Positions 18,402 to 28,780 of a stretch of DNA of 64,000 bases are shown here, one piece after another. Location: contig JAEINU010000001.1 in assembly GCA_016342685.1 (NCBI GenBank), positions 1,160,920 to 1,224,919 of the forward strand, in the 5' to 3' direction. Below the pieces are notes generated by a model. The model was not told the origin of the DNA. It saw only the letters and a program-made list of their open reading frames with translations, and ran no database searches. The position numbers and the translations under genes were made by a program. Numbering within the stretch: the first letter of the stretch is position 1; each line of letters starts with the position of its first letter. The stretch comes from Bacteroidales bacterium. GTDB lineage: Bacteria > Bacteroidota > Bacteroidia > Bacteroidales > UBA12077.

Positions 18402-18427
18402 AAAGCGCAGCCAATACACTACGCTTT
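18402..18427 (-). terminator. Rho-independent terminator of the exported-protein operon
   Basis: Read on the minus strand, AAAGCGTAG and CTGCGCTTT form a 9-bp stem (one G-U pair) with an 8-base loop, followed by a T-rich tract. It starts 19 bp after the stop codon of the last gene (18446). Confidence 0.8.
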
Positions 18428-18445: not shown

Positions 18446-19807
18446 CTACTCTTTCATTAAAGAATCTACTTTTTTATTAAGTTCTACGTTTTCATTCTTT
18501 AAATCAATAACATAAAGAGTTAGTTCTTCTATTTTTTGTAATAGTTTCGCATTCATTTCTCCAATAGAAATTCCATTTTCTTCAACTTCGGCTGTTGTTG
18601 GAATTTCAGGTAAATGCTTATTTTTATTTATAAACTTCTCAAGTTCGTTAAGACTCATTAAGTTGTAGTCTTTTTCGAAAACAAAATCAGCCCAAGTATC
18701 GGTATTTTCAACAATTACTTCGCCACATCCAATTATTCCTTTAACAGAAAGTTTATAGAGTGGATTTATAGTGCCAATACCTATGTTACCACCACCATCT
18801 ATTGTCATCCTTTGGTGAGTATTTGTTCTGAATGTCATTTTATTATCATTATGACTATAAATAATATAACCAGCATAAGTATCTTCAGGGTCACCAAAAA
18901 ATATATATTGGTTTGACGTATTTGGCGAAAGAAATTGCAGGCCTACATTTCCACTATTTTCAATGCTTACAGTTGCATTTCCATTTGAACTTACAGTTCC
19001 TGCACTGCCCTTTAGAATATGAAGTTTATTATCTGGAGTTGTTGTTCCTATTCCAAGGTTACCATTAGAATTAAGTGCCATTACATTTGCATTTAAATGA
19101 TTATTTTGTGTTCCATAATTAAATCTTAGACTTGAATTCCCTGCTCCGTTTGTTGTTTGTCTCACTAGAGACCAAACATCCGTATTTTCTGTTCCGCTTC
19201 CTTCAATAAAATTAATACCTGATCCCCAATTTCCATCTGAATTAGATATAAGATCCAACTGGGCATCTTGCGCTTCAAAAATAAATGATGAGTATTGAGT
19301 TTTAATCCCAACATTTGATGAATTAACATGTAATTTAGCTTCTGGATTTGTTGTTCCAATTCCAAAACTACCGTTTTGTAACAATGTCATTTTTTCAATT
19401 CCTCCGTTATTACCCGTATACCAATGCTGATCACCATTTTTAAAAATTCTATATCGTTTATTCCAATTCGTACCATCATATTGTGAAAAATAAATATTTC
19501 CTGCATAAGCATGCGTACCCTCTGTATTTCCACAAAAAATTAAATTCCCATTATGTTCGCCTCCAACGCCCATTGCATTTTCACCAAAAACAGATATATA
19601 CGCTCCATTTGACGCTGCAGTACCTCCATACAAACCAATGTATGATTCAATTGAATTCTTAATTGCTAAGGGATTCGATCCTGATGGACCATTTATAGTA
19701 CCAGTTGCTCCGGAATTGAAATTTAGATTATCTACAAACTGATTCTGCCCAAAAAGACTTATTGTAAAAAGAATTGCTATTGTTATTAATATTATTTTTT
19801 TACTCAT
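18446..19807 (-). CDS. secreted tail-fibre-like protein with GIGT repeats
   Basis: A 453-residue exported protein (signal peptide ILITIAILFTISLFGQ). The body has three GIGTTNPxxKLxV-type repeats (near residues 151, 251 and 345). The C-terminal region has WADFVFEKDYNLMSLNELEK, then HLPEIPT, NGISIGEMN and a coiled coil (IEELTLYVIDLKNENVELNK). This architecture is common in Bacteroidota and resembles trimeric phage tail-fibre or adhesin stalks; function is unknown. The last about 100 residues are nearly the same as those of the protein encoded at 25714-27549, which starts this operon. Followed by a terminator at 18402-18427. Confidence 0.85.
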   Translation of the reverse strand: MSKKIILITIAILFTISLFGQNQFVDNLNFNSGATGTINGPSGSNPLAIKNSIESYIGLYGGTAASNGAYISVFGENAMGVGGEHNGNLIFCGNTEGTHAYAGNIYFSQYDGTNWNKRYRIFKNGDQHWYTGNNGGIEKMTLLQNGSFGIGTTNPEAKLHVNSSNVGIKTQYSSFIFEAQDAQLDLISNSDGNWGSGINFIEGSGTENTDVWSLVRQTTNGAGNSSLRFNYGTQNNHLNANVMALNSNGNLGIGTTTPDNKLHILKGSAGTVSSNGNATVSIENSGNVGLQFLSPNTSNQYIFFGDPEDTYAGYIIYSHNDNKMTFRTNTHQRMTIDGGGNIGIGTINPLYKLSVKGIIGCGEVIVENTDTWADFVFEKDYNLMSLNELEKFINKNKHLPEIPTTAEVEENGISIGEMNAKLLQKIEELTLYVIDLKNENVELNKKVDSLMKE

Positions 19808-19919: not shown

Positions 19920-22094
19920 TTATTGTTTAATTATTTTTTCTAAATAGAGCTTATCATTTACCAAAACTCTTACAAAATACAGACCTGAAGGATAGTTACT
20001 TAAGTCAATTTTTTCAGTATTATTAAAATTACGCACTTCTTGAATTTTCTTACCTGAAATATCATAAACCTGAATATTTTTCTCTTCACCTTCAGACCCA
20101 GAAATATCTATATTAAAAATACCCTTTGATGGGTTTGGGTAGATTCTTATTGAATAATCATTTAAGGTTATATCTCGATCCTTTACAACAACTTTTTCAT
20201 CATTATTATTATCTTCTGTTTCAACAACTATATCGTTTGTCTTGCTTATATCAGAACATACTTTCATTTTTGCTGAAAAATTAGATCCCGCGACAGCATG
20301 AAACCCTTCTCTTAAAACAATTGGATTACTAGATGAATACAACAAGAGAGATCTGCTTGGAGTAACTCTATAATCACCGATTTTTAAAAAATCAACATAT
20401 TGAGATTGTGAATGAATATAAATATCATAATCTCGTGAATTTCCCTTATTAAAAGGAAGCATCGTGCAACTAATCATCTTCACACTAAAAGTCTTAGTGT
20501 AAATTACATGATTGTTTTCATCATAACATCTAATCACTATATTTCCAGAACCATTATTAAATAAACCATCATTAAGAGCTGACAGTGAAACTACAGAAGA
20601 ATTACTAAAATAAATTTCTCCATTTGTTCCTGTAAAGGAAAAGTGACTTGTACCATCAGGAAAATCAAAATCTGGGAGTCCAACCAAATTATCAGCAATT
20701 TCTTCAAAATTAAGAATCATACTTGGCTGTTTAACATGAATTGTTCTATAATGAACTTTATTTCCATCCACTTCTGAGTATGATTTCTCATTTGTTGTAT
20801 TAAAGTATAATCGTATATCAAACTCTCTTGTTTCCATTGAAAAATTGGATTGACACCTAAACTTAAATTTAGATCCATTCCATCCAACTTGTGTTAACCA
20901 CAGAAATTCCTCATCTGATTTATTTGAACTTAATATTTCAAATGCTGTGCAGGCATTACAACCTTGAGTTTCCACTTCAATTAATTCTCCACCTGGTGGC
21001 ACATCAATAGTTTCAGGAAGTTTAATAGGATCAATAATTACAACTTCAACGTCATTAACAAAATTGTCGTTTGGATTACCACCGGGTGGTACTACACATG
21101 AAACTATCATATTAAAGAAGTGCCATTTTGGATTATCAAATAATCCAGGACGACTACAACTTGTTGATTTATTCGTAAATTCTCCATAATTATGATCATA
21201 TAATGTTATCGGTTGGTCACAACCAGAATATGATATTATTAAATTTGAACAAGGTTTATATTTTGCTTTAAATCCTTCTGAACTGTTGTCTAGAATCTCA
21301 AAATATACTCCTGTACCATCATATGTTGTTTGTATATCAATATTGGGATTAAATCCTTCTATACAATCACAACCACCACCACCACTCGTTGTTTCTTCTG
21401 CTACATCAAAATTAAGAGTTTTGAATTTAATAAGATCATTATTTTGATATATCTCTAAATCAAATAAATAATTACCGACTTGAGTAGGTGTATATTCATC
21501 AATTAACTTTTTTATATATAAATCATCTTGCAAAATAAATCCTGTTTCAATATTACCTGTAAAACGGTTTTTTAATGAGTATGATAAATTACTATTTGAT
21601 GCGCCACTGGGAGTGATTCTGACATAAAAATCAATTTGTTCATTTGTGGCATAAACTAAGTGCTTGGGTTCAAGGAAAAAATCTACAGCCAAGTCAGCTT
21701 CTCCAATATAATAAGTGATCTGTTCTGTTTCTTGATTAATTTCAGGAAATTCACATTCTCCCGTAGTAAATGAAGAATATGTTGTTTGTTTCATTAAAAC
21801 ATCAATTTGAAAATAACCATTTGATATTAAACTTGAATTATTTAAATCGTATATATGAGTATAGTATTCTTGGATTGGGTAGTCTAGTATTTGACCATCT
21901 CCAAAATCCCATGTGCATTTATCACAAGGATTATTATAATAAATAGCCTCAGAATGAAGTATATATGTAATCTCAAGTTGATTGCCATTTTGAACTATTT
22001 GATAACTAAACCAATCGTTTGCTTTTACACTTTCTGAATTAAAAATAAAACATAAAGCTGTTATAATAAAAACATTGTATATATATCTTTTCAT
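19920..22094 (-). CDS. secreted protein with T9SS type A sorting domain
   Basis: A 724-residue exported protein. It has an N-terminal signal peptide (FIITALCFIFNSESVKA), a PKD-like segment (CTWDFGDGQILDY, near residue 61) and a CDCIEGFNPN motif after a glycine run (near 245). The C-terminal type A sorting domain covers about the last 75 residues (IRIYPNPSKGIFNIDI ... DLSNYPSGLYFVRV ... EKIIKQ), which directs export through the type IX system and attachment to the cell surface. Middle domains are beta-rich and unassigned. It lies 12 bp after the metalloprotease gene and is part of the five-gene operon. Confidence 0.88.
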   Translation of the reverse strand: MKRYIYNVFIITALCFIFNSESVKANDWFSYQIVQNGNQLEITYILHSEAIYYNNPCDKCTWDFGDGQILDYPIQEYYTHIYDLNNSSLISNGYFQIDVLMKQTTYSSFTTGECEFPEINQETEQITYYIGEADLAVDFFLEPKHLVYATNEQIDFYVRITPSGASNSNLSYSLKNRFTGNIETGFILQDDLYIKKLIDEYTPTQVGNYLFDLEIYQNNDLIKFKTLNFDVAEETTSGGGGCDCIEGFNPNIDIQTTYDGTGVYFEILDNSSEGFKAKYKPCSNLIISYSGCDQPITLYDHNYGEFTNKSTSCSRPGLFDNPKWHFFNMIVSCVVPPGGNPNDNFVNDVEVVIIDPIKLPETIDVPPGGELIEVETQGCNACTAFEILSSNKSDEEFLWLTQVGWNGSKFKFRCQSNFSMETREFDIRLYFNTTNEKSYSEVDGNKVHYRTIHVKQPSMILNFEEIADNLVGLPDFDFPDGTSHFSFTGTNGEIYFSNSSVVSLSALNDGLFNNGSGNIVIRCYDENNHVIYTKTFSVKMISCTMLPFNKGNSRDYDIYIHSQSQYVDFLKIGDYRVTPSRSLLLYSSSNPIVLREGFHAVAGSNFSAKMKVCSDISKTNDIVVETEDNNNDEKVVVKDRDITLNDYSIRIYPNPSKGIFNIDISGSEGEEKNIQVYDISGKKIQEVRNFNNTEKIDLSNYPSGLYFVRVLVNDKLYLEKIIKQ

Positions 22095-22106
22095 TTTTTT
22101 AATATT

Positions 22107-24998
22107 TTAGTCTGAAAAACCTACAATCCTTGTTAAAACTGGAATATGAGTCCAAGATCCATTAACTTCTACTTGTAGGCTAATTATAATCTTTATAGCC
22201 TTACCTGATGAAGTTATTTGATATGTTTTATAACTATGTTGAGGTATACCAGTATATTGAACACCATCAATAGTTATAACATGCCATTTATCGCTATTAT
22301 TTGAAACTGTTATTTCGATATTGTCTCCACAATTATTTTCTATAACAACATCTAAATAATCTTCTGGATTTTCGCCAACATCACCATCTACAAGAAAAAT
22401 GTAGTTATTATCTGTTCCTAGTAATGGTTTAACATCTACATCATAATCCCATCCAACTTGAGATTCGTCAATAAATAACTTAGATAATACTGGGTCTTTT
22501 TCTTTTATAATTGGTATATCCGCAAAATCCTTTCCACTAAATTTTAATTTATACAATCCAGCAGTTATTTTCTCAGAAGGAATTAAAAAAGTCCAATTTG
22601 TTTTTTTTGCAATTTCTTCTGAAGATAATGTTGTGGTATAAACTAATGCATTCCCGTTAAAAACTTCAATATTTAGACTTTTTAACGGTAAAGATGTTTT
22701 TACATCAATGTTTAAAGTTGTTGCTTCTAACACCTCAAAATTATTAGTCTCTTCGAAAGACCAAGTATTGCTGCTTTTATTATATTCACGTTCAAATTCA
22801 ACGGAAGGAATAACTTCTGAATTCTGACTAATTCCAACGCTTTCTATATAAGCTGGTAGAATATTAATGTAATTATTTTTAACAAATGTTTGTTCTGTAC
22901 AATCAATATGTTTTAAACTTACATTAAATGAACCTGATTTTGTATATTCATGACCTGTATTTTCAATAGTTGAACTTATTCCATCTCCAAAGTCCCAAAG
23001 CCAATCTCCTGTTGCACCTGTAGACAGATTCCTAAATTTAATTAGCTTTAGATCAAATATAGATTGTTTTGCATTAAAATTTAAATTGGCTTGTATTGCA
23101 TTATCCCATTTAATTTCATAATTACCAGGAATTACTCCTTCATTTCCATCTACTCTAGTAACTAATACAACAAAATCTTCACCTACAGCATGGCATATAT
23201 TCTTTTGTCCAACTCCATTAACGGTTTCAATTTCTTTACTACTAGTTATTTCGTTAGTTGTGGTATTAAAAGTATGGAATTGAACCTTAAAATCCGCCAT
23301 TATATTATCTCCATCGGGATCGGCATTAAAATAAAGCGATTTTGTTTGATAATTGATATTATTAGTTTCAACCTTATGCGCTCTAAAAGCAAAAGATTTG
23401 TCAATGTCAGTATCAGTACTTGGAAAAATTTGTGGAAAACTTGTTGATTGATTGCATGAAATTGCAATTGGCTCTGTAAAGGCAGGATTAGAAGGATTAG
23501 CTAGAATAGATGTATAAAAATTATTTGTATTAGGATCATCCCAATTATTTACTAAATGACCATCCTTTTTCCATCTGTTATCGTGAAAATAAGCTTTTTC
23601 GGTAAAATTAGACAAAGCTTCATCGTAGGTTTTGAAATTACCATTAACATTAAGTAATTCATTGCTCATGAAAGTTTCAATTTTTCCAAAATTTGAAGAA
23701 TTATTCTGTTCATATGCTTTGCATGTTTCACGAAAAATAGCCAACTTATCTTTATTTGTTATAGTATTATTCGTTTTATCTAAATTGTGTTCATACAAAT
23801 GCCTCCAGAACATGGCATAATCATATTTTATATCATGATGACTTTTAAAATTGTAATTTGAACCAATTGCATCATTTAAAAAGCCAGCTGTATAATATTC
23901 GTAAGAATATTTATATGTATTTATTGCAAAAGCTGTATTAGCATTAATTGTACTAAAATTTCCCTCATTCATAAATATCGTTTCAAGGGATTTAGCTTGC
24001 CCTTCTATTAGCCATAATCGATTATTTAATTCTGTTTGAGAATTTGGGAAATTTGCAACTATATTATTCCATGACATATGACTCCATTGAATACCATGTA
24101 AAAATTCATGGCTAATAATTTGATATATTAGTTCATTCTCTGTAAGGTGATTATTTTGAATACTTGATAGTGATTTTACATAATCTATACTTCTGCTATC
24201 TATATAAATCGCCCTATCTCCATCGTTACCAACAGCATAAATATCACTTCCAAAATAGAATGTTAAACTAGGAGCTTGATAATTTGAATGGATAAAAATA
24301 TGATAATCTCCATCTTGATCAAAGGGAATATTTGTTATGGTTCCTTGATTATTTGTTCTCGAAATACCTTTGCAAAGCTCCCATTCATCGACTTCTTTCG
24401 TCCAAGAATCTCTAAATGCATTTTCAACATATCCTGTAAATATATTAGAACTTATGCCTAAAGGATGATTATTAAAAAAGTTATCTGCATAATGAATAAT
24501 AAAATTATACGGAACACCTGTTATTGAGAACTGTTTTTGCTTTTCAATAACTAAATAGCTATCAAAGTTATTACTGTGATTATGATAACTAAAGTTCACA
24601 ATTAAATTACCAGTTAAACTACCGTTGTGTTCTCTTACCTCAATTTCAAAAAAACCAGAATTACCATTCAGTCCATTAGAAATATCTACACCCAAATTAT
24701 TATTTGAGGGTAAAATTGTTGAAATTCTACCAGAACTACTTACTGTTTGTCGCGAATTATAAATTATGGTTCCACCATATTGAGCAATATTTCTAACAAT
24801 TAAATCAACATCCTGACCAAGAGTCAAAAAGTTAACAGTTATTTTAAGCCTTGATCCTGTTTGTGCAGTTAAATGATAATAATCAACTTGATTGTTATTA
24901 AATGGGATACCATTAATTTGAACTTTAGGAGCTTGGGCATGTACTGATAATACTATGAATAATAGAATTATAATTATATTTACCTTTTTCATTGTCAT
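22107..24998 (-). CDS. secreted zinc metalloprotease with PKD domain
   Basis: A 963-residue exported protein with a signal peptide (IIIILLFIVLSVHAQ). ATG 24998 or the third codon (24992) may be the start. The zinc site is HEFLH (residues 297-301) with a likely third ligand E332 in WLIEGQAKSLE, as in gluzincin-type peptidases. An N-terminal beta-domain (about 30-140) may be a pre-peptidase-like module, and a PKD domain (WLWDFGDG ... HEYTKSGSFNVSL) lies at about 645-710. No T9SS sorting domain is seen at the C-terminus, which ends in a beta-rich segment, so its release route is unclear. It sits between a lipoprotein and a T9SS cargo in the same operon. The peptidase call rests on the HExxH...E pattern. 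Confidence 0.82.
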   Translation of the reverse strand: MTMKKVNIIIILLFIVLSVHAQAPKVQINGIPFNNNQVDYYHLTAQTGSRLKITVNFLTLGQDVDLIVRNIAQYGGTIIYNSRQTVSSSGRISTILPSNNNLGVDISNGLNGNSGFFEIEVREHNGSLTGNLIVNFSYHNHSNNFDSYLVIEKQKQFSITGVPYNFIIHYADNFFNNHPLGISSNIFTGYVENAFRDSWTKEVDEWELCKGISRTNNQGTITNIPFDQDGDYHIFIHSNYQAPSLTFYFGSDIYAVGNDGDRAIYIDSRSIDYVKSLSSIQNNHLTENELIYQIISHEFLHGIQWSHMSWNNIVANFPNSQTELNNRLWLIEGQAKSLETIFMNEGNFSTINANTAFAINTYKYSYEYYTAGFLNDAIGSNYNFKSHHDIKYDYAMFWRHLYEHNLDKTNNTITNKDKLAIFRETCKAYEQNNSSNFGKIETFMSNELLNVNGNFKTYDEALSNFTEKAYFHDNRWKKDGHLVNNWDDPNTNNFYTSILANPSNPAFTEPIAISCNQSTSFPQIFPSTDTDIDKSFAFRAHKVETNNINYQTKSLYFNADPDGDNIMADFKVQFHTFNTTTNEITSSKEIETVNGVGQKNICHAVGEDFVVLVTRVDGNEGVIPGNYEIKWDNAIQANLNFNAKQSIFDLKLIKFRNLSTGATGDWLWDFGDGISSTIENTGHEYTKSGSFNVSLKHIDCTEQTFVKNNYINILPAYIESVGISQNSEVIPSVEFEREYNKSSNTWSFEETNNFEVLEATTLNIDVKTSLPLKSLNIEVFNGNALVYTTTLSSEEIAKKTNWTFLIPSEKITAGLYKLKFSGKDFADIPIIKEKDPVLSKLFIDESQVGWDYDVDVKPLLGTDNNYIFLVDGDVGENPEDYLDVVIENNCGDNIEITVSNNSDKWHVITIDGVQYTGIPQHSYKTYQITSSGKAIKIIISLQVEVNGSWTHIPVLTRIVGFSD

Positions 24999-25001
24999 AT
25001 T

Positions 25002-25703
25002 TTAATAATTAAAAGTTGTAACACTCCATAAATCTTTAAATGATTCATCTTTAAATAAATAAATTCTTCCTACTTGATTATTTCGATAAATTAAATAGAA
25101 GGTATAAATAGTCTTTTCATATTTTACCTGTAAAATATATTGATAGTCTATATTGAACTGTTTTAAAGTCCCATCTATTTTTTTAATATCAATAATTTCA
25201 TAATTTACACCATAATTAAAAAACAAGATGCATCTTATTTTTTCAATAAATTCAATATTATTTGAACTTTGTACTTTTAAAAAGAGTTTATTAAAAGATC
25301 TAACTGGATTATATTTTATTCCATCATAATAAGCACTTATATTAACTTTGGAGCTACCTACAACTTGGGAGCTATAAAAATGAACATTAGGGAATACCTT
25401 CCTAATATAATCAGGTAATGAGTTAATTATATTATAAAAGTGATAATTGTCTGTTAGATTGTATCTAATACTGTCCAAAATGTTCTCTGCAACTTTTTGT
25501 TCTAGGGTCGATTTTGTTGTAATAGTATCAGAAACTTCTTCCTTAAGCACCTCCGCAACTGTAAGCTGCACTGGCGGTTCACTTTTTGGCAAAAACTGTT
25601 CTGGTGTTTCTTTCTCTGTTGTAATTTCTTGTTTGCTTTTACACATAACAAGAAAAAAAGAACAGAACAATAATAGAAAGGATATTCTTTTGTAATTTCT
25701 CAT
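25002..25703 (-). CDS. putative lipoprotein, unknown function
   Basis: A 233-residue protein with a lipobox ending FLVMC (about C21), followed by a Glu/Lys/Pro-rich linker and a compact alpha/beta-looking C-terminal region (about 85-233). It lies 10 bp after the LamG gene and 3 bp before the metalloprotease gene, so the three are cotranscribed and very likely coupled. No family is recognised; it may anchor or assist its exported neighbours. Confidence 0.75.
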   Translation of the reverse strand: MRNYKRISFLLLFCSFFLVMCKSKQEITTEKETPEQFLPKSEPPVQLTVAEVLKEEVSDTITTKSTLEQKVAENILDSIRYNLTDNYHFYNIINSLPDYIRKVFPNVHFYSSQVVGSSKVNISAYYDGIKYNPVRSFNKLFLKVQSSNNIEFIEKIRCILFFNYGVNYEIIDIKKIDGTLKQFNIDYQYILQVKYEKTIYTFYLIYRNNQVGRIYLFKDESFKDLWSVTTFNY

Positions 25704-25713
25704 AATTTTATAT

Positions 25714-27549
25714 TTATTTTTTTTCTAATTGCTCAACACGTTTTGCAAGAGTTTCGATTAGCTCTTGTTGTTTAATAGTATGAAGAGTTAGTTCTTCTAT
25801 TTTTTGTAAAAGTTTGGAGTTCATTTGTCCAACCGAGATACCGTTTTCTTCAACTTCGGCAGTTGTTGGAATTTCTGGTAGGTGTTTGTTAGCTTTTATG
25901 TAGTTATCAAGTTCTTTTAAAGACATGAGTTTATAATCGTTTTCGAAAACGAAATCGGCCCAACCATCTGTATTTTCAACTATTATTTCGCCGCAACCAA
26001 TTGTTCCTTTAACTGAGAGTTTGTAAATCGGAGAAGTGGTTCCAATGCCAACGTTGCCACCCCCATTAGCTATGATTACATTTCCTGATTCGTAATAATT
26101 TAAAAATACACTTCCGGTTGAAGTACCTGCCCTCAGATGTAAAATTCCATCTGTGGACCTTCCAAAAATATTTTTAAATCCTTTAATATAACTTTCTCCA
26201 TCAGGACCTTTAATATTCCCAGATATTTCTAGTTTCTCAGTTGGATTTGTAGTGCCGATACCAACGTTACCGTTACTCATAACCTTCATACGTACATTAC
26301 TTTCATCATCTTCAAGTTGTATAATAACCGCACTTGAACTTGCTCCACCCCAACCATTATGTATTAATAGGCCTTGAGAGCTTCCTCCGTCATTTTGAAT
26401 TCTTGCAGTCCAATAATCATTTGTTGATTTAAAAACATCAAATCCAGCACCTGGATCAGTGGTTCCAATTCCAACATTTCCGATATTATCCATAAATATT
26501 CCTGTATTCCACACTCCTTGCGTTGATGAATGTGTTTGCAACTGCATTTTACTGGCTCTTGTTTGTGAAGGGTCTGAAAAATGAACGATTCTACTTGTAT
26601 ATTCACCATAAGTTTCACTTTTATAACCTAGAGAAATCGCCACTCCTCTGTTAAAATCATAATCACCAGCTTTTGAGTCAATGTGTAAGGCATCAACAAT
26701 TGTATTTTCCTCCCCAAATGGTGAACAAATGCGTACAATTTCATTTCCAACGGTAGAAGAATAATTATTACCAATTTGAAGTTTTGTTCTCGGATCTGCT
26801 GTTCCAATACCAACATTACCATCAGTATTATATATTTTAGAACCTAATTTATTCCAAACAGCTACTTCTATAGTAGGAGGAGCAGGAGGAACAATAGACT
26901 CATCATTATAATGTTGGCTAATTTCTGTTTCACTGAGTGGTCTTGTATACATTAGGAGCTCATCCATATCCCCAGAAAATGACATTCCAGGTCCATTACC
27001 CAAACTTCCTTGTCCTCCAACACTATTTATCAACGTTTCATTTGGTAAATCTGTTTTTACGGCTGTATTACTCAATACTCCATTAACATACAAAGACATT
27101 TCATTGTTATTTCTTGTAATAGCAATGTGCATCCATTGTTCTGTACCTATATAATAAGAACCAAATTCACTGTTTCCTGAATAAACAGTAAAACCCCCAG
27201 ATTCTTCATCAACTTGAAAATTCCCCCCATTAAAAATAGTTAGGGGCATTCCCACCTCATCCCTAAGATTTATCCAGGTACAGATTGTATACTGGGTTCC
27301 CAAATCAATCGGTGTAAATTCTATCTTTCCTTCTAACTCAAAATAATAAGCTGAATTAGCTACATTATTTCTATCCATAGCTAAAGAAGCATCAGTAACC
27401 ACACCATCATTACCACTAACACTTCCATCATTTGCATTTCCATTAAAAGACCAGTAACCAACTAGACCGTCAGATGGCCATTGAGCGTTCACATATAAAC
27501 TACATGTTAAAAGAATTAATACAATAGAAAGATTTTTAATTTTTCTCAT
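25714..27549 (-). CDS. secreted LamG-domain tail-fibre-like protein
   Basis: A 611-residue exported protein and first gene of the operon. Signal peptide (SIVLILLTCSLYVNAQ); LamG/concanavalin-like domain at about residues 25-215 (GLVGYWSFNGNANDGS, MHIAITRNNNEMSLYVNG, MDELLMYTRPLSETEI), which often binds carbohydrate. Four GNVGIGT repeats follow (near 245, 357, 427 and 498), then the WADFVFENDYKLMSLKELDN / HLPEIPT / NGISVGQMN region and a terminal coiled coil. The C-terminus is a close paralogue of the last gene in the operon (18446-19807). Likely a trimeric surface protein with a sugar-binding head; this is inference. Confidence 0.87.
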   Translation of the reverse strand: MRKIKNLSIVLILLTCSLYVNAQWPSDGLVGYWSFNGNANDGSVSGNDGVVTDASLAMDRNNVANSAYYFELEGKIEFTPIDLGTQYTICTWINLRDEVGMPLTIFNGGNFQVDEESGGFTVYSGNSEFGSYYIGTEQWMHIAITRNNNEMSLYVNGVLSNTAVKTDLPNETLINSVGGQGSLGNGPGMSFSGDMDELLMYTRPLSETEISQHYNDESIVPPAPPTIEVAVWNKLGSKIYNTDGNVGIGTADPRTKLQIGNNYSSTVGNEIVRICSPFGEENTIVDALHIDSKAGDYDFNRGVAISLGYKSETYGEYTSRIVHFSDPSQTRASKMQLQTHSSTQGVWNTGIFMDNIGNVGIGTTDPGAGFDVFKSTNDYWTARIQNDGGSSQGLLIHNGWGGASSSAVIIQLEDDESNVRMKVMSNGNVGIGTTNPTEKLEISGNIKGPDGESYIKGFKNIFGRSTDGILHLRAGTSTGSVFLNYYESGNVIIANGGGNVGIGTTSPIYKLSVKGTIGCGEIIVENTDGWADFVFENDYKLMSLKELDNYIKANKHLPEIPTTAEVEENGISVGQMNSKLLQKIEELTLHTIKQQELIETLAKRVEQLEKK

Positions 27550-27605: not shown

Positions 27606-27613
27606 CAAAAATA
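27606..27613 (-). promoter_or_regulatory. putative -7 promoter box of the exported-protein operon
   Basis: TATTTTTG on the minus strand matches the Bacteroidota TAnnTTTG element, 56 bp upstream of ATG 27549. A TTTG box is not seen at the usual 19-21 bp; that zone is occupied by an 18-bp palindrome, suggesting an activator-dependent promoter. Confidence 0.55.
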
Positions 27614-27619
27614 ACATTT

Positions 27620-27637
27620 CTGTTAAAAGTTTAACAG
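27620..27637. promoter_or_regulatory. 18-bp palindrome over the -33 region
   Basis: CTGTTAAA (27620-27627) and TTTAACAG (27630-27637) are a perfect inverted repeat with a 2-bp centre. It lies 6 bp upstream of the -7 box and covers the place of the -33 element, as expected for an operator of a dimeric regulator. Confidence 0.5.
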
Positions 27638-27644
27638 TAAATAA

Positions 27645-27716
27645 TTAAACGTAGCTATTTAAGCAATAAACGTATGATTTAATTAAATGAACGTATCTAT
27701 TTCGTTGATTAACGTT
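27645..27716 (-). promoter_or_regulatory. four tandem LytTR-type binding sites, 21-bp pitch
   Basis: Read towards the operon (minus strand) the sites are AACGTTAAT (27716-27708), TACGTTCAT (27695-27687), TACGTTTAT (27674-27666) and TACGTTTAA (27653-27645). Each starts exactly 21 bp from the next. The first three fit the LytTR-family direct-repeat consensus [TA][AC][CA]GTTN[AG][TG] with 12-bp spacers; the fourth differs at the last base. The nearest site ends 31 bp upstream of the -7 box, an activator-like position. No LytTR regulator gene lies in the window. Confidence 0.7.
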
Positions 27717-27843: not shown

Positions 27844-27869
27844 AAAGCCTGACATTTTTGCCAGGCTTT
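27844..27869 (-). terminator. Rho-independent terminator after folD
   Basis: AAAGCCTG and CAGGCTTT form an 8-bp stem; on the minus strand it is followed by a run of T. It lies 23 bp after the folD stop. Confidence 0.85.
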
Positions 27870-27892: not shown

Positions 27893-28780
27893 TTATTCTT
27901 TCGGGTAAATTTCTCCTTTGGCTGCTTTTAGTGTATTTAGCATTAAGGAAACAATGGTCATTGGACCTACACCACCAGGAACCGGAGTAATGTATTCGCA
28001 TTTTTCTGAAACCTCGTCGAACTTAACATCTCCTAATAGTTTCCAGCCCGATTTTGTTTTGTCCGATTTTACTCGTGTAATTCCAACATCGATAATTGTT
28101 GCTCCTTCTTTAACCATATCAGCGGTTAGGAATTCAGCAACACCCAATGCTGCTATAATAATATCTGCTTTAGCTACAACTTCTTTTAAATTCTTAGTTC
28201 GACTGTGAGCCATTGTAACGGTTGCATTACCCGGATTGGCTTTTTGTCCCAACAAAATTGTCATTGGTTTACCAACAATATTACTTCGGCCAATAACCAC
28301 AACATCTTTACCCGATGTTTCAATTTCATACCGTTTAAAAAGTTCCATAATTCCTGCAGGAGTAGCAGAAACGTAAGCAGGCAAACCAATCACCATACGA
28401 CCTAAATTAATAGGATGAAAACCATCTACATCTTTCTTAGGATCAATAGCTTCAATTATTTTTTGCTCAGAAATATGTTTTGGCAATGGAAGTTGTAAGA
28501 TAAAACCATCAATATCGGGATTGTTATTTAGCTTATTTACTTCTTGAAGCATTTGTTCTTCAGTAATATTATCTTCGAAACGAAGAACCGTAGAATTAAA
28601 ACCTACCTGTGCACAAGCTTTTTCTTTGTGTCCAACATATGTTTCACTTGCTCCATCGTGTCCAACAATTACAGCAGCTAAATGTGGTGTTTTACCACCT
28701 TTTTCTTTAATCTTCTGAACTTCAAGAGCTATTTCTTCTTTTATTTCGTTTGCTATTTTTTTACCGTCAATTAGTTTCAT
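27893..28780 (-). CDS. folD: bifunctional methylenetetrahydrofolate dehydrogenase / methenyl-THF cyclohydrolase
   Basis: FolD interconverts 5,10-methylene-, 5,10-methenyl- and 10-formyl-tetrahydrofolate, supplying one-carbon units for purines and formyl-Met-tRNA. It is 295 residues. Y48 and K52 lie in the catalytic [11 protein letters not shown] motif; [22 protein letters not shown] and [12 protein letters not shown] (Rossmann NADP site) are diagnostic, and [11 protein letters not shown] is near the C-terminus. It lies 64 bp downstream of ffh on the same strand and is followed by a terminator. Confidence 0.97.

Follow-up and report, generated by a model that had tools for sequence, protein, structure and literature searches.

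The window, by which we mean the whole stretch of 64,000 nucleotides analysed here, contains four regularly phased 9-bp direct repeats of the LytTR type before a promoter box on the minus strand, and this array probably represents a multi-site LytTR-type operator at the promoter of a five-gene operon. Binding by LytTR proteins is suggested by the motif, the spacing, the distance to the promoter, the 23 LytTR domains of the genome and a comparable array beside a LytTR gene in another family of the same order (G091). On the same reading, the array family would also control other envelope genes of the genus. Since the same array recurs at the same promoter distance before other envelope genes in related species, the array in the window probably serves as one of the inputs to a regulatory circuit that is shared and as yet uncharacterised. 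An earlier note on this DNA had interpreted the operon as LytTR-driven, an interpretation that the present analysis supports in part.

Structure of the array and its promoter

The array spans minus-strand positions 27716-27645. Its sites are AACGTTAAT (27708..27716), TACGTTCAT (27687..27695), TACGTTTAT (27666..27674) and TACGTTTAA (27645..27653), with 12-bp spacers and a pitch of 21/21/21; the coordinates 27716, 27695, 27674 and 27653 bear out the four repeats at an exact 21-bp pitch described in the earlier note. The LytTR consensus is [TA][AC][CA]GTTN[AG][TG], which the first three repeats match at 9/9 positions and the fourth at 8/9. The promoter box TATTTTTG (27606..27613, minus strand), which we take to fit the Bacteroidetes -7 element TAnnTTTG, begins 31 bp past the fourth repeat, exactly as the earlier note had it. 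Its figure of 92 bp from the array to the first ATG requires correction, as the distance from the last site to the ATG of gene 1 (27549) measures 95 bp. As an observation, four 9-bp LytTR-type sites before a promoter box are thus confirmed.

Several lines of evidence bear on the view that the array is a chance alignment or a functionless remnant of tandem duplication. In favour of this view, no orthologue of the window operon was found that could show conservation of the array. Against it, the cores of the four sites are kept and their spacers differ, AACGT is the sole 5-mer of the 64-kb window with at least two G/C to occur in four copies with a constant pitch between 12 and 45, and four-copy equal-pitch arrays arose in 0 of 100 dinucleotide shuffles. 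A weight matrix built from 48 sites in arrays of 16 other genomes of the genus (16 of the 17 training loci, L153 being left out) gives the four sites 11.7, 6.4, 9.2 and 8.8 bits in order, and ranks the array first in the window with 27.3 bits for three sites, the next place reaching 8.2 and the shuffles at most 17.4. The corresponding four-site score is 36.2 bits, against a shuffle maximum of 7.1. With the pitch left free between 20 and 22, the maxima for the backward-read controls are 20.0 bits across 31 loci and 18.3 bits in the window, still below the 27.3 bits of the array. These results, together with a gap to the box that lies within 1 bp of that in all 18 conserved arrays described below, make a chance or remnant origin extremely improbable.

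A perfect inverted repeat, CTGTTAAA-2-TTTAACAG (27620..27637), lies between the array and the promoter box and is possibly due to chance. With up to one mismatch allowed, the genome has no second copy of it. As a second operator it was rejected, given that the window holds 16 palindromes of its class against a shuffle mean of 15.8, which is the chance level.

The operon behind the array

The array precedes five minus-strand genes (27549-18446), of which the first four are separated by 3-12 bp and the fifth follows after a further 112 bp. Gene 1 (25714..27549, 611 aa) combines a LamG (Laminin_G_3) domain with a tail-fibre-like C-terminal domain; gene 2 (25002..25703, 233 aa) encodes a lipoprotein-like product with no family match; gene 3 (22107..24998, 963 aa) contains a PKD domain and the zinc-protease-like motif HEFLHGIQWSH; the product of gene 4 (19920..22094, 724 aa) bears a T9SS type A sorting domain; and gene 5 (18446..19807, 453 aa) encodes a second tail-fibre-like protein sharing the C-terminal domain of gene 1. 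The tail-fibre, lipoprotein and protease labels were assigned by eye and are named by no family model. The unit is flanked by two terminator-like hairpins on the minus strand, one (27844..27869) 3' of the upstream gene, which by eye resembles folD (27893-28780), and the other (18402..18427) directly 3' of gene 5.

Among the matches listed for 59 relatives, gene 1 has no full-length match outside its own genome, and the matches of gene 3 among the 80 loci retained lie solely around the PKD region. The tail-fibre-like C-terminal domain is multicopy, with at least 9 matches in the genome under study and at least 27 in the relative G012, often on short contigs; the copies in the former include those in the window (25714-27549 and 18446-19807) and others on contigs C17, C18 and C22.

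A conserved array beside a tolC-like gene

The genus was represented by 20 genomes, including the one from which the window derives (G000). In G000 itself, a scan for the exact triple at up to one mismatch returned two overlapping matches at the window array and one other place (with one mismatch), the backward-read control giving 16. The exact ACGTT triple with no mismatches at pitch 20-22 was found in 0 of the 19 other genomes. This absence could be taken as a refutation, a reading that is overturned by the ACGWT form present in the genus, for which the exact pattern is too strict. Three copies of ACGWTNA at pitch 21 with up to one mismatch match in 18 of the 20 genomes. In number these matches are not enriched (27 versus 48 in the backward controls), and it is their positions, rather than their number, that are informative.

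In 18/20 genomes, one such match stands before orthologues of a 94-aa gene and of a trypsin-like one, with a tolC-like gene transcribed divergently, so that the array precedes the same operon in 17 of the 19 other genomes; the 94-aa gene is unmatched in L157 and the tolC gene in L164. No array of this set was found in G009 (78% complete) or G019 (83% complete). All 18 tolC-linked arrays have a TAnnTT.G box whose start lies exactly 32 bp past the last site, and the 31-bp gap in the window falls within 1 bp of this value. The distal pair stands at pitch 22, strongly (at least 19 bits) in 8 of the 18 arrays, and is weaker or absent in the remaining 10. The tolC-linked array of G000 itself lies at G000:C9:343891-343941. 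The genus consensus is ACGWT, often ACGAT, a form that breaks the GTT of the LytTR consensus.

At 15 of the 18 tolC-linked arrays an ORF of 42-54 aa stands before the next gene. The conserved 42-aa form (L136:3513-3641 and its orthologues, 54 aa once) comes right after the array promoter, appears by eye to contain one membrane-spanning stretch and was annotated by none of the tools used. Downstream of the conserved operon, the ORF L136:4910-6814 resembles by eye a fusion of a cyclic-nucleotide-binding domain and an aspartate ammonia-lyase/fumarase-like enzyme.

Single pairs of sites at pitch 21 were discarded as uninformative (135 versus 512 backward controls, and 10 versus 27 in another scan). 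In the latter scan, the five pair places outside the two arrays are all located within ORFs (L015, L291, L294, L295 and L296), among them the one that sits 3 kb from a LytTR gene.

Arrays at outer-membrane genes and outside the genus

A gene for an outer-membrane beta-barrel protein (OMP_b-brl_2), which in L160, L166 and L174 adjoins a gene that by eye is superoxide-dismutase-like, is preceded by arrays in G002, G010 and G011. On contig C38 of the genome under study, two tandem copies have weaker arrays (20.6 and 21.3 bits) situated 31 bp before TATATTAG and TATATTCG. The array of G010 lies 32 bp before TATTTTCG, and in G002 the nearest box is 41-43 bp off. The corresponding locus has two sites in G016 and a degenerate set in G004; at the loci of G003, G011:C35 and C9:1041733 of the genome under study no array was seen.

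Across the order, triples with no mismatches occur in 27 of 295 genomes, and eight loci outside the genus were inspected (L176, L177, L178, L182, L183, L184, L193 and L194). Arrays that we judged to be non-coding and distinct from simple repeats are found in five genomes (G071, G072, G091, G170 and G290); many of the remaining listed matches resemble coding sequence or simple repeats. In G071 the gene after the array is tail-fibre-like and encodes 1703 aa, and the 12 kb read there contain no LytTR gene; no clear gene follows the array of G170 in the array direction, and that of G290 has no clear promoter box. The array of G072 (L233:8125-8194 on G072:C98, also L184) is composed of CACGTTCA/CACGTTTA-type sites and by eye is followed by some 150 bp of sequence that ends, ahead of thrS, in a hairpin and a T-rich tail; a small RNA could be driven from it. 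The idea that tail-fibre operons in general bear such arrays was also considered and rejected, none of 50 further regions selected by their tail-fibre domain having one; LytTR genes occur in 2 of those 50.

Possible connection to LytTR regulators

The earlier note presupposed a LytTR regulator encoded elsewhere in the genome, and such regulators are indeed at hand, with 23 LytTR domains above the cut-off. The closest association of an array with a LytTR regulator comes from G091, where a stretch with three ACGTTCA sites at pitch 21 separates a LytTR response regulator (E 2.6e-17) from an operon, a box beginning 31-33 bp past the last site. The regulator adjoins a sensor with Reg_prop, Y_Y_Y and His_kinase domains, the third gene of the operon encodes a tail-fibre protein sharing the C-terminal domain of the window proteins, and two other proteins of the operon end, by eye, like T9SS cargo. 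With the genus matrix the G091 sites score -3.2 because their flanks differ, and the tie to the genus arrays consists of core, pitch and neighbourhood only. The position of this array next to a LytTR/LytS pair and a tail-fibre operon offers support by association.

When 22 of the 23 LytTR places of the genome under study were compared as proteins with the G091 regulator, the best match (34%) was the response regulator G000:C9:37408, whose kinase has the same domains as the G091 sensor. Its orthologues in eight relatives, 82-88% identical, lie 12.5-20 kb from the conserved array, a linkage that is one inherited arrangement rather than eight observations. In the genome under study 306 kb separate the gene from the tolC-linked array, and in G006 the regulator near the array is a 36% paralogue. 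We tentatively name G000:C9:37408, with its Reg_prop/Y_Y_Y histidine kinase, as the candidate regulator, an assignment more apt to be wrong than right. The 19 LytTR regions of this genome that were examined contain no clear array, the best score being 13.6 bits. A further locus, G000:C23:684033-685138 (L133), contains three single-domain LytTR genes in tandem, an organization seen again in G012 (L240:17686-18830).

The array might instead be a real operator for regulators of another family that recognise direct repeats separated by two helical turns, for instance AraC-type, hybrid two-component or BldC-like proteins. In AraC-type operators the half-sites are longer and bipartite, spaced by about 21 bp and contacted by two helix-turn-helix motifs. 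The short 9-bp core with its 12-bp spacer argues against this origin, as does a pitch that can be 22, as in the strong distal pairs of 8/18 tolC-linked arrays. It is nevertheless in keeping with another family that the genus consensus is often ACGAT rather than ACGTT, that direct repeats at a pitch near 21 bp are known from AraC half-sites and, according to the excerpt available, from BldC, and hence are not specific to LytTR proteins, and that resemblance in motif is weak proof because LytTR sites, in the accessible part of the source, have no common consensus (PMC4847170). On the other side, the distance to the promoter is close to that of published LytTR promoters, including those of Bacteroides, and the G091 array adjoins a LytTR pair. 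Taken together, these features make a different regulator family unlikely, and we retain the LytTR-type operator as the preferred interpretation.

Proposed mode of regulation

In the mechanism envisaged for the LytTR-type operator, dimers of LytTR proteins would each occupy two sites on the same face of the helix, the sites being two helical turns apart, and would fill the array cooperatively. The proximal pair would recruit RNA polymerase, its centre falling near -60 for a transcription start about 7 bp past the box, and the window operon would be switched on along with core envelope genes. Activation, cooperativity and the response to a cue are what we infer in this scheme. Repression by a LytTR protein, as in the case of CoxC, which in the portion of the source available represses from three direct repeats (PMC11347149), would be compatible with the palindrome between array and box. 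The repeats of CoxC overlap the -35 box, whereas all four window sites lie upstream and end 31 bp before the -7-like box, in the placement of the activators AgrA and HdrR, and repression is accordingly very unlikely here.

As a more speculative and rather doubtful extension, a LytTR two-component system with a Reg_prop/Y_Y_Y sensor might govern an envelope regulon, so far undescribed and shared by the whole genus, by way of phased arrays that have from two to five sites. Each promoter's threshold would depend on how many sites it has, and a strain-specific surface operon would have been captured into this ancestral regulon by the acquisition of a four-site array.

Comparison with known LytTR operators

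The published operators are compared here on the basis of the accessible parts of the sources cited. LytTR sites are direct (or inverse) repeats of 9-11 nt with spacers of 11-13 nt and no common consensus (PMC4847170), a range that includes the 9-bp repeats and 12-bp spacers of the window. As in LytTR promoters that are activated, the array also has an upstream position, its end lying 31 bp ahead of the -7-like box, and it fits published LytTR sites except in having four sites. In the operators of AgrA, HdrR/BrsR and other LRS systems, direct repeats of 9 bp separated by 12 bp stand upstream of the promoter (PMC6193735), so that both dimensions are as in the window; these operators differ in having two repeats versus four, and in the core. 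The proximal repeats of AgrA are centred near -60 (PMC4227749), which would roughly coincide with the centre of window repeats 3-4 if the start is about 7 bp past the box.

RcoM1 and CoxC sites are triplet repeats with 12-13-bp spacers bound by the LytTR domain (PMC11347149), and thus share with the window more than two evenly spaced direct repeats and similar spacers. They differ in their 8-bp TTCNNGCA-type repeats and in belonging to Proteobacteria, and CoxC differs further in repressing from repeats that overlap the -35 box. The LRS-like promoters of Bacteroides (B. thetaiotaomicron and B. ovatus) have repeats at pitch 22 and 11+4+19 = 34 bp to TATCTTTG (PMC6193735), a gap near the 31-32 bp of the window and the genus, before the same class of promoter box. 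They differ in having two 11-bp repeats with another core and, as described in the same source, precede predicted autoregulatory membrane-protein operons rather than a multi-gene envelope regulon (PMC6193735).

In the accessible portions of the open-licence literature no multi-promoter LytTR regulon of Bacteroidetes was found, the two predicted Bacteroides LRS-like promoters being the sole relevant item (PMC6193735). LytTR regulators are numerous in the genome under study, yet their targets in the phylum are little described. The present analysis supplies a motif with a fixed distance to the promoter, gives target genes for 18 genomes and names a candidate regulator, and the question is therefore directly testable. 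Set against these known systems, the array is known in kind, and what it adds to them is a family of arrays at envelope genes across a genus, together with that candidate regulator.
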